In this document: positions 1,232-3,528 of the stretch, one piece after another | Numbering within the stretch: the first letter of the stretch is position 1 | Layout: each line of letters opens with the position of its first letter | Source of the DNA: Paenisporosarcina antarctica | GTDB lineage: Bacteria > Bacillota > Bacilli > Bacillales_A > Planococcaceae | NCBI RefSeq assembly: GCF_004367585.1 | Contig: NZ_CP038015.1 | Coordinates: 1,866,001 to 1,930,000 of the forward strand | Reading direction: 5' to 3' | Length of the DNA: 64,000 nt | Made by a program: the position numbers and the translations under genes | The notes under the pieces: model-generated | What the model was told of the DNA's origin: nothing | Databases searched by the model: none | The model's input: the letters and a program-made list of their open reading frames with translations, nothing else

Positions 1232-1615
1232 TTACATGACGGTTGCTTCTGGCTCGTGGCTGATGATTTCTCGAATTGAATTGTTTTCATTCATAATCGC
1301 GACAGTTGGTTTATGCTCTTTAGCCTCATCGTTCATCATATATACATACGATAAAATAATTACGATGTCCCCTTTTTGAACAAGACGAGCTGCTGCACCG
1401 TTTACACAAATAACTCCGCTTCCTCTTTCCCCTGCAATTATATAGGTTTCAAAACGCGCTCCGTTATTGTTATTTACAATATGCACTTTCTCATTTGGCA
1501 ACATACCTACAGCATCTAAAAGGTTTTGATCAATTGTAATACTTCCTACATAATTTAAATCCGCTTCTGTAACTACAGCACGGTGAAGTTTTGAATTTAA
1601 CATCATACGTAACAT
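1232..1615 (-). CDS. panD: Aspartate 1-decarboxylase (panD)
   Basis: Decarboxylates L-aspartate to beta-alanine for pantothenate synthesis. The 127-residue pro-enzyme has the Gly24-Ser25 self-cleavage pair that generates the pyruvoyl cofactor, and Tyr58 is in the expected place. The length matches the bacterial family. It is the last gene of panB-panC-panD, three bases after the panC stop, so it is translated from the same message. Nothing unusual is seen. Confidence 0.97.
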
Positions 1616-1618
1616 CGT

Positions 1619-2470
1619 TTACTCTCCTTTACGATCCAACAAAATATTGTCGATCAGACGCGCTTTTTCGAAAAAGACAGCTACCGCTAATATAACTGTC
1701 GTGTCATTTGATACGTCAGTTGTCAGGTTTGGATAGCTTAACAATTCAACATAATCAATTTTTCCTGAAATGGCATTTTCAATGTGTTGGGTGGTAACTT
1801 GTTTAGCTTGTTCTATATTTTGATTCAACTTATACTGTTCAATTCCAAGTTGAATTGCTTGATGGATAATTGGTGCATGTGCTCGCTCTGCTTTACTTAA
1901 GAAAACGTTTCGAGAACTTTTTGCTAGACCGTCTGGTTCCCGAACTGTGGCTCCCCTGCGAACTTTCAGTGGAAAATTATAATCTCGGACCATTGTCTCG
2001 ATAATCGCCAATTGTTGTGCATCTTTTTGACCAAAATAAACGGTCGTTGGTTCGACTAAATGAAAAAACTTCGTGACTACTTTTAATACACCATCAAAAT
2101 GTCCAGGTCTTGAAGCACCACATAGTACATTTGCTTGAGCTCCTGCATGTATCGAAATACCTCCATCTTGTGGATACATTTCATTAACTTGAGGGAAAAA
2201 CAATAAGTCTACACCAGCTTCTTCTGCCAATTTTGTATCTCGTTCTAAATCACGAGGATAGCTACCCAAATCTTCATTAGGTCCAAATTGTGCAGGATTA
2301 ACAAAGATACTCATGACTACATAGTCATTTTCTTCTCTAGCTTGTTTAACAAGGGATATATGCCCTTCATGTAAGTAGCCCATAGTAGGGACAAAACCGA
2401 TACTTTTGCCAGACACTCTTTGTGTCTTAATATATTCTTTTAGCTCTTTAATCAATTGCACTTGGATCAT
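1619..2470 (-). CDS. panC: Pantothenate synthetase (panC)
   Basis: Joins pantoate and beta-alanine using ATP. The nucleotidyltransferase signature PTMGYLHEGH is at residues 28-37, FGQKD lies near residue 146, and the KSSRN loop near residue 187. Its 283 residues are the usual length. The start codon overlaps the panB stop as TAATG, indicating translational coupling inside the panBCD operon. Confidence 0.97.
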   Translation of the reverse strand: MIQVQLIKELKEYIKTQRVSGKSIGFVPTMGYLHEGHISLVKQAREENDYVVMSIFVNPAQFGPNEDLGSYPRDLERDTKLAEEAGVDLLFFPQVNEMYPQDGGISIHAGAQANVLCGASRPGHFDGVLKVVTKFFHLVEPTTVYFGQKDAQQLAIIETMVRDYNFPLKVRRGATVREPDGLAKSSRNVFLSKAERAHAPIIHQAIQLGIEQYKLNQNIEQAKQVTTQHIENAISGKIDYVELLSYPNLTTDVSNDTTVILAVAVFFEKARLIDNILLDRKGE

Positions 2471-3303
2471 TATTTTCCTCCGTATAACTGCTGGTATTCG
2501 TCATCTTTCATTGTAAAACGATGTTCAACTGATGGAAATTCTCCTGTTTTAACTTCTTCTACATATTGGACCAAGCCAGCAGAAATTTCTTTCCCTGCTT
2601 GTGAGAAGGCTTTTACAAACTTCGGCATATGATGACTACCATACGTCACAGTGTCATGAAAAACTAGGACTTGACCGTCTGTTTCTGCTCCTGCACCAAT
2701 GCCAATTACTGGAATTGAAAGTGTTTCAGTTATCGTTTTGCCAAGTTGATAGGGAATACATTCTAGAACGACCATAAAAGCTCCTGCAGCTTCACATGCT
2801 AGTGCATCTTCAATTAATTTTTGTGCTGCTTGTGCGGTTTTCCCTTGAACCTTATAACCACCTGAAACACTTGCCGACTGTGGTAGGAGACCCAAATGAG
2901 CTACTACAGGTATACCTGTACGTGACAATAATCGAATGACATCGATGACTTCGTCTGCCCCTTCAATTTTTAAAGCTTGTGCATTCGTTTCTTGGAATAA
3001 ACGAATTGCGTTAGTGAGTGTTGTATCAAGTGAGCCATGGTAAGTACCAAAAGGCATATCGACAACTACAAAAGTATCAGGTGCCCCACGTCTCGTCGCT
3101 TTCCCGTGATGAATCATATCTTCAAGAGTTACTTGAACTGTTGAATCGTAACCAAGAACCACCATACCAAGAGAATCCCCAACGAGTAAAATCTCGACAC
3201 CTGCGTTTTCAGCAAGTTTTGCTGATGGATAGTCGTATGCAGTTAACATAATAATTTTATTGTTCTCTTTTTTCATCTTCATAAATTCAGTTGTCGTTTT
3301 CAT
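2470..3303 (-). CDS. panB: 3-methyl-2-oxobutanoate hydroxymethyltransferase (panB)
   Basis: Makes ketopantoate from alpha-ketoisovalerate and methylene-tetrahydrofolate, the first committed step to pantothenate. This TIM-barrel enzyme has 277 residues. The metal-site motif VGDSLGMV and the later [14 protein letters not shown] segment are clear. Start ATG 3303 follows AGGAG by seven bases. The leader between birA and this gene carries tandem pan-type RNA hairpins, a terminator hairpin and a small hairpin over the ribosome binding site, so expression is probably controlled in the leader. Confidence 0.97.
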
Positions 3304-3313
3304 TTCCTATCTC

Positions 3314-3327
3314 CTCTCTTTTGAGAG
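3314..3327 (-). promoter_or_regulatory. Small hairpin overlapping the panB ribosome binding site
   Basis: On the minus strand CTCTC pairs with GAGAG across an AAAA loop, and the GAGAG arm is the first part of the GAGAGGAG ribosome binding site. It is short, so only a mild effect on initiation is likely. Confidence 0.35.
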
Positions 3328-3330
3328 AAA

Positions 3331-3374
3331 ACCAAAATAAAAACCCTTCTGGCCAAAAAATGGACAGAAGGGTG
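3331..3374 (-). terminator. Attenuator or terminator in the panB leader
   Basis: A nine-base stem, ACCCTTCTG with CAGAAGGGT, is followed on the minus strand by TTTTATTTT. It lies between the pan-type hairpins and panB, about 30 bases before the start codon. That suits a conditional terminator of the pan leader; it could also simply end birA readthrough. Confidence 0.8.
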
Positions 3375-3399
3375 GTTTAGGTAAAAGAATTGGTTTCCT

Positions 3400-3490
3400 C
3401 CGTCCCTGTCGATTAAGATCAAGGCAGAAATTATTAAATTTTATAATAACAAGTTTGTTCATCAGGTGCAGTTCTACTCAGATACTGCCC
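3400..3490 (-). ncRNA. Tandem pan RNA motif in the panBCD leader
   Basis: Two consecutive hairpins share one design: outer helix, bulged A on the 3' side, five-base helix, bulged A on the 5' side, short inner helix and loop. Hairpin 1 (3490-3465 in the direction of transcription) reads GG-GCAGT-A-TCT, loop, AGA-ACTGC-A-CC. Hairpin 2 (3427-3400) reads CTG-CCTTG-A-TC, loop, GA-CAGGG-A-CGG. Two conserved bulged adenosines per stem, often in tandem and upstream of panB, is the published description of the pan RNA motif. I matched it from memory of that description, not with a covariance model. Confidence 0.8.
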
Positions 3491-3499
3491 TTCGCATTT

Positions 3500-3528
3500 A
3501 CTATAACAGAAATGAAATGCACATTCTA
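3500..3528 (-). promoter_or_regulatory. Probable panBCD promoter
   Basis: On the minus strand TAGAAT and TATAGT are separated by 17 bases, and the -10 is extended (TG one base before it). The expected transcription start falls just before the first pan hairpin, which fits the leader being transcribed from here. The -35 is weak. Confidence 0.5.

Follow-up and report, generated by a model that had tools for sequence, protein, structure and literature searches.

The pan motif was described in 2010 as two hairpins in tandem in which bulged A residues are conserved, situated upstream of panB, panC and the aspartate decarboxylase gene, and the accessible portion of that report places it in three phyla (PMC2864571). 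Our literature searches, which left most subscription papers out of reach, found no functional study of pan since then, and the papers mentioning the corresponding Rfam family, RF01749, report no functional test of it as far as their text is accessible. An earlier reading of the present locus from its sequence alone (hereafter the sequence-only reading), which called the motif still unexplained, agrees with this literature.

The terminating riboswitches of vitamin operons in Bacillota resemble pan in combining a conserved RNA near the transcript start, a mutually exclusive antiterminator and terminator, and pathway and transporter genes downstream. Unlike them, pan has no demonstrated ligand, and in place of a multi-helix junction it has a pair of small hairpins whose loops vary. 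Attenuators of the PyrR/TRAP type are similar in that a binding-site hairpin excludes the antiterminator and lets the terminator form, but we know of no RNA-binding protein for pan.

Here we analyzed the leader of panBCD in a stretch of 64,000 nucleotides (the window). Its pan copy has the same tandem bulged-A hairpins and the same genes downstream as the motif of 2010, and is an ordinary member of the family without any departure from it. On the other hand, an antiterminator, a pairing of the pan tail with a segment near the ribosome site, and operons for kinase and transporter do not figure in the accessible account of the motif (PMC2864571). What is out of the ordinary for this orphan family is the switch anatomy, the tail pairing and the kinase and transporter regulon, not the window copy. 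We propose, with a probability of roughly three in four, that the leader is a cis-acting OFF switch of panBCD built on pan, the signal being pantothenate or a compound made from it, with CoA or a close derivative as the first choice; no expression, probing or binding data are available for it.

The pan leader of panBCD in the window

The sequence-only reading had recognized tandem pan hairpins between an extended -10 promoter and an intrinsic terminator, followed by a hairpin over the panB ribosome binding site, and each of these parts was recovered in the present analysis (Table 1). The covariance-model search (Infernal, Rfam 15) gave an RF01749 match of 63.5 bits against a gathering cut-off of 36.2 (E 8.7e-9), which spans the whole model (1-92) and is the sole match in the genome at E 0.001. 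A strict pattern of a 5-bp helix with a bulged A on each side matched 13 times over both strands of the window, in tandem solely at the two pan hairpins, and 20 single-base shuffles (one strand each) yielded a mean of 3.5 single matches per 64 kb and no tandem pair. The extended -10 element lies immediately 5' of pan, and the transcript is thus expected to start at about the first base of pan. Sites resembling TGnTATAAT (at least 7/8) recur within 45 nt upstream of pan at 114 of 160 non-redundant loci, compared to 7.5% of shuffles. Neither the extended -10 element nor the terminator of the window leader was found by a simple promoter and terminator scan, while custom scripts found both.

The window leader folds better than 200 of 200 shuffles (z -4.8), and the gap between pan and the ATG of panB amounts to 92 nt. 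We take the third gene of the operon to be panD, a name without support from a family library; its homologues come after panC in relatives. The connection of the parts was missed in the sequence-only reading: the 3' strand of pan is common to hairpin 2, an antiterminator and, in Bacilli, a helix with the segment preceding the ribosome site. Apart from pan, the window contains an FMN riboswitch (49933-49802, minus strand; 120 bits against a cut-off of 66.2).

Table 1. Elements of the panBCD leader and operon, in order of transcription (window positions)
Feature	Position	Strand	Basis
Extended -10 promoter element, TGTTATAGT	3500..3508	-	read from sequence; position conserved in relatives
pan element	3396..3491	-	RF01749 covariance-model match
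pan hairpin 1, bulged A on each side of a 5-bp helix	3464..3491	-	RF01749 match, covariation, pattern scan
pan hairpin 2, bulged A on each side of a 5-bp helix; proposed switching hairpin	3400..3427	-	RF01749 match, covariation, pattern scan, folding
Antiterminator 5' strand, GGACGGAGG (3' arm of hairpin 2 plus tail)	3397..3405	-	pairing statistics, folding
pan tail, GGAGGAAACCAA, can pair with the segment preceding the ribosome site	3390..3401	-	swap test, folding
Intrinsic terminator, hairpin 3373-3343 followed by a U-rich tract	3334..3373	-	terminator-calling scripts, -18.3 kcal/mol
Antiterminator 3' strand, CUUCUGUCC, within the terminator 5' arm	3362..3370	-	pairing statistics, folding
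Segment P after the terminator, UUGGUUUUCUCU, pairs with the pan tail	3324..3335	-	swap test, folding
Hairpin CUCUC-AAAA-GAGAG covering the start of the panB ribosome binding site	3314..3327	-	sequence, folding
GGAG of the panB ribosome binding site	3314-3311	-	read from sequence
panB, ketopantoate hydroxymethyltransferase	2470..3303 (ATG at 3303)	-	ORF; single PF02548 match of the genome
panC, pantothenate synthetase	1619..2470	-	ORF; single PF02569 match of the genome
panD, presumably aspartate 1-decarboxylase	1232..1615	-	ORF; name without support from a family library

Conservation and covariation of the two hairpins

Covariation was assessed in a hand-picked alignment of 52 sequences. Over both hairpins, 93.8% of the cells were paired compared to 82.2% after shuffling, and two-sided changes were found in 15 of the 21 pairs. 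None of 500 shuffles reached the observed value on any of five covariation measures, and structures slid along the alignment were at most 43% paired. The bulged A is invariant at positions 9, 73 and 89 of the window copy and kept in at least 90% of the sequences at position 25. The loops are variable, and conservation is concentrated in the stems and bulges. Altogether, compensatory changes keep the two hairpins in the leaders of relatives, which bears out the sequence-only reading.

A strand shared by hairpin 2 and a predicted antiterminator

The conserved 3' end of pan, to which the Rfam model assigns no partner, complements the 5' arm of the terminator. Judging by sequence and folding energy only, the antiterminator formed in this way and hairpin 2 are mutually exclusive, as both use the same 3' strand. 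Terminators were called behind the 160 non-redundant loci, 142 of which had one that begins 3 nt or more beyond pan; the same caller found none at the remaining 18, nor at 13 of 68 loci in a second set. (A first caller, positive at 128 of 129 loci with over-extended stems, was dropped for this stricter one.) The pairing of a 15-nt strand from the 3' end of pan with the 5' half of its own terminator was then ranked against 700 background terminators drawn from the pan loci and the window.

The own pairing fell into the best 5% at 84 of the 142 loci (7.1 expected) and into the best 1% at 35. Loci in the best 5% comprised 61 of 70 in the class of the window (Bacilli) and 23 of 72 elsewhere. Among the controls at the 5% level (7 expected), the 5' arm of hairpin 2 gave 1 of 142, a segment of hairpin 1 gave 2, upstream DNA 10 and the reversed letters 21, the last of which implies that the purine-rich composition explains part of the pairing signal. 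The motif CCTT[CT] was present in the terminator 5' half at 114 of the 142 pan loci and in 41 of the 700 background terminators. When terminators were swapped between loci, 0 of 5000 swaps were as good as the own pairs for all 142 loci, and the same was true of the 72 loci outside Bacilli; within Bacilli, 1997 of 5000 swaps were as good (2147 before the locus L119 was moved into the class), as the sequences there are too alike. The second set, which covers many phyla, had 19 of 55 loci at 5% (2.75 expected) and 12 at 1%. The signal was weak and noisy when pan was paired with all of the downstream 130 nt (the 5% level was reached at 37 of 160 loci), and a 23-nt pan strand performed less well than 15 nt (60 vs. 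84 of 142).

Before the 3' arm of the window terminator is made, the antiterminator is predicted at -28.8 kcal/mol and hairpin 2 at -27.5, a difference of 1.3. With the terminator complete, hairpin 2 plus the terminator reaches -44.4 kcal/mol compared to -32.7 for the antiterminator. Across 127 loci with a terminator within 60 nt of pan, the antiterminator is the more stable of the two at 78 while the terminator 3' arm is still lacking, and hairpin 2 is the more stable at 117 once this arm has been made. These energies fit a kinetic switch, and the gap between the folds is so small that a bound signal stabilizing hairpin 2 modestly would force termination.

Pairing of the pan tail with the ribosome site region in Bacilli

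The tail of pan can also pair with segment P, which in the window overlaps the strand covering the panB ribosome site. At 54 loci of Bacilli, the own pairs of tail and P averaged -14.0 kcal/mol compared to -10.5 for swapped pairs (sd 0.38), and 0 of 5000 swaps were as good; the result was likewise 0 of 5000 in the family of the window (28 loci) and in the other Bacilli (26 loci) analyzed individually. The effect was small at 54 loci outside Bacilli (-8.5 vs. -7.5, with 1 of 5000 as good), and shuffling placed the pairing at the 5% level in 33 of the 54 Bacilli loci as opposed to 9 of the 54 others. In the window, the fold with the tail-P helix (-53.7 kcal/mol) is 9.7 kcal/mol less stable than that with the ribosome-site hairpin (-63.4 kcal/mol). 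We regard the tail-P pairing in Bacilli as a probable second control, on translation, of which the role is inferred and the direction unresolved. The pairing would free the ribosome site when the tail is available, and cannot be fitted in a simple way to an OFF switch.

Distribution of pan

At E 0.001, all 9 genomes of the genus matched pan, as did 190 of the 200 sampled from the family. For the class the count was 222 out of 398 genomes, and for the phylum 152 out of 398; the scans of family, class and phylum used stricter filters, by which weak matches were lost. Ten genomes of the family sample were without pan, and PanB was present in five of them and absent in the other five. No pan was recognized by eye, without a model run, in the panB leaders of the five with PanB, which belong to one genus of the family (G017, G051, G074, G083 and G091), suggesting that pan can be lost. 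In three of these five, a divergent gene other than birA seems, again by eye, to precede panB. Bacillus subtilis possesses pan.

When a library with a single genome for each species was searched with a hairpin 2 pattern, at least 119 stretches were detected. Among the 80 matches listed, many are metagenome-assembled, and the titles include Bacillota, Deltaproteobacteria, Chloroflexi, Acidobacteria, Nitrospinota and Nitrospirae, as well as Binatia, Dadabacteria, Methylomirabilis, Armatimonadetes and Myxococcales. In 74 of these 80 listed matches, panB, panC, panD or a DUF2520 gene was found within 3.6 kb, and four of the six without any had less than 250 nt of downstream sequence.

Genes and operons behind pan

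In a set of 189 loci enriched in second pan copies, 188 had at least one of panB, panC, panD, DUF2520, pantothenate kinase or a linked transporter within 3.6 kb of pan. Pantothenate kinase was found behind pan at 11 of the 189 loci, 9 of which had no panB, panC or panD in the 3.6 kb; the kinases were of types III and II, coaA (type I) being outside the check. At L184, where the kinase is separated from pan by roughly 3.1 kb that include an amidohydrolase, a birA-like gene and an ECF gene, the link is less sure. A PanS-like transporter preceded panC at 3 of the 189 loci, and no kinase was found in the second set (80 loci).

The genes behind pan at individual loci were assigned by family models. 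L094 has matches to the BioY family (1.6e-33) and to an ECF substrate component (3e-25) as well as a type III kinase (7.3e-82; NCBIfam equivalog, 415 vs. 381 bits), L107 an OPT transporter (5.8e-54) and a type II kinase (271 vs. 234 bits), and L108 a member of the bile-acid symporter family (8.7e-48) that scores 298 bits with the PanS model, under its cut-off of 400. L098 has a DUF2520 gene (1e-33; a Rossmann-like protein, PF10728). Two copies of pan were found in 15 genomes, and both places were read in 13: the pathway is split into two units, each with its own pan, in 8, one pan precedes transporter and kinase genes in 4, and the remaining genome is G560 (see below).

Outside Bacilli, many pan operons (L098, L104, L109 and others) begin with a gene for a DUF2520 Rossmann-like protein, which is a candidate for a ketopantoate reductase of another type, a function that is inferred. 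Behind pan in L107, L112 and L188, the genes for an OPT-family transporter and a type II pantothenate kinase form an apparent operon, and one of these genomes (G860) has no detectable PanB and PanC. From this it is inferred that the OPT transporter at these loci may carry pantothenate.

What is sensed

Four genomes (G893, G591, G873 and G860; 95-100% complete) matched neither PF02548 (PanB) nor PF02569 (PanC) at E 0.001 and possess one pan each, before uptake and kinase genes. All four are drafts of 30 to 300 contigs, and a missing piece is possible for any one of them; out of 14 control genomes, the PanB model matched in 11 and the PanC model in 9. In two further genomes (G637 and G632), no PanC was detected, but each had two PF02548 matches. 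The wider regulon shortens the list of ligands, as pan is kept only before uptake and kinase genes in the genomes without detectable PanB and PanC; an intermediate confined to the de novo route is thus unlikely to be the signal.

The control of a kinase by pan points past pantothenate, albeit it is also compatible with pantothenate as the signal. As far as the accessible text goes, among pantothenate kinases, feedback by CoA is reported for type I but for neither type II nor type III (PMC12570885), and the kinases found behind pan belong to the latter two types. We favor CoA as the signal by argument, without proof or ligand data. In its full form, namely that pan is a natural RNA sensor of coenzyme A (or phosphopantetheine or acyl-CoA), a terminating riboswitch that turns off biosynthesis and uptake together with the CoA-insensitive type II/III kinases at sufficient CoA, this idea is tentative, and we would sooner expect it to fail than to hold. 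If experiments proved CoA to be the ligand, a long-noted gap would be filled: the accessible parts of two riboswitch reviews, to which it is a 'blind spot', count CoA among the cofactors for which no riboswitch is known (PMC9971707, PMC10043782).

Proposed mechanism and alternatives

In the OFF switch proposed here, transcription would begin at pan. In the absence of the signal, the 3' strand of hairpin 2 would pair with the terminator 5' arm, leaving the terminator blocked and the polymerase free to continue into panB. A signal bound by the two bulged-A hairpins, directly or via a protein, would hold hairpin 2 shut, so that the terminator forms and transcription stops. In Bacilli, the segment after the terminator is predicted to pair either with the pan tail or with the ribosome site, adding probable control of translation. 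Sequence statistics show the two hairpins of pan, the strand common to the alternative folds, the terminator, the pairing of tail and P and the wider regulon, while it is inferred which way the switch acts, what kind of signal it answers to and what the tail-P pairing does; whether the RNA itself or a bound protein is the sensor remains open. The exclusive folds give the orphan pan family a testable mechanism, for which termination in vitro is a defined assay, and mutants of the CoA pathway exist in B. subtilis, according to the accessible part of a recent study (PMC11487621).

The same switch of hairpin 2 and antiterminator could be operated by a dimeric RNA-binding protein, perhaps responsive to CoA or pantothenate, that holds both bulged-A hairpins, so that the RNA would not be the sensor. 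The discoverers of pan suggested a protein from the simple, dimeric form of the RNA, as stated in the accessible portion of their paper (PMC2864571), and the restriction of conservation to the stems and bulges, with unconserved loops, favors it as well. Nevertheless, a dedicated protein would need to span all phyla with pan matches, and the leaders of L198 and L260, in which we see by eye only a hairpin-2-type element, offer a dimer no second hairpin; we consider such a protein possible but doubtful. Pantothenate itself may also be the ligand of the same switch, given that biosynthesis genes predominate behind pan and that pan is retained solely in front of uptake and kinase genes in the four genomes where PanB and PanC went undetected. 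However, to shut off the kinase amid plentiful substrate would be poor economy, and on this argument, which is no more than that, pantothenate appears to be an unlikely ligand.

Only the two exclusive folds are established, not which of them the signal favors, and the leader could therefore be an ON switch in which the bound state favors the antiterminator. We regard this as improbable, since the conserved and covarying bulged-A hairpin 2 is the likely binding form and excludes the antiterminator, and since OFF control by the product is the usual mode in vitamin pathways. At the far end, there may be no switch at all, pan being an RNA stability element combined with constitutive attenuation. 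We found no regulation data for pan in the literature, and the word 'riboswitch' does not occur in the accessible main text of the 2024 paper on CoA in B. subtilis (PMC11487621), both of which are consistent with a lack of regulation. Yet neither the conservation of the exclusive pairing across classes nor the extension of pan to operons for kinases and transporters is easy to explain without regulation, and we give the absence of a switch hardly any credence.

Variant and additional copies of pan

Several loci deviated from the arrangement in Table 1. In L103, the second pan of G560, a terminator lies behind the motif, but no gene of at least 80 codons on the same strand follows for more than 1 kb; this copy is possibly free-standing or a relict. 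The leaders of L198 (Delta-proteobacterium) and L260 (Syntrophus) appear by eye to consist of promoter-like sequence, the hairpin-2-type element alone, a terminator with CCUUCUG and then panB. Finally, in L222 (a Dadabacteria record) and L231 (bacterium HR37), a hairpin resembling part of pan hairpin 1 was seen by eye after hairpin 2, not before it, and a reversed order of the hairpins is possible in these two loci.
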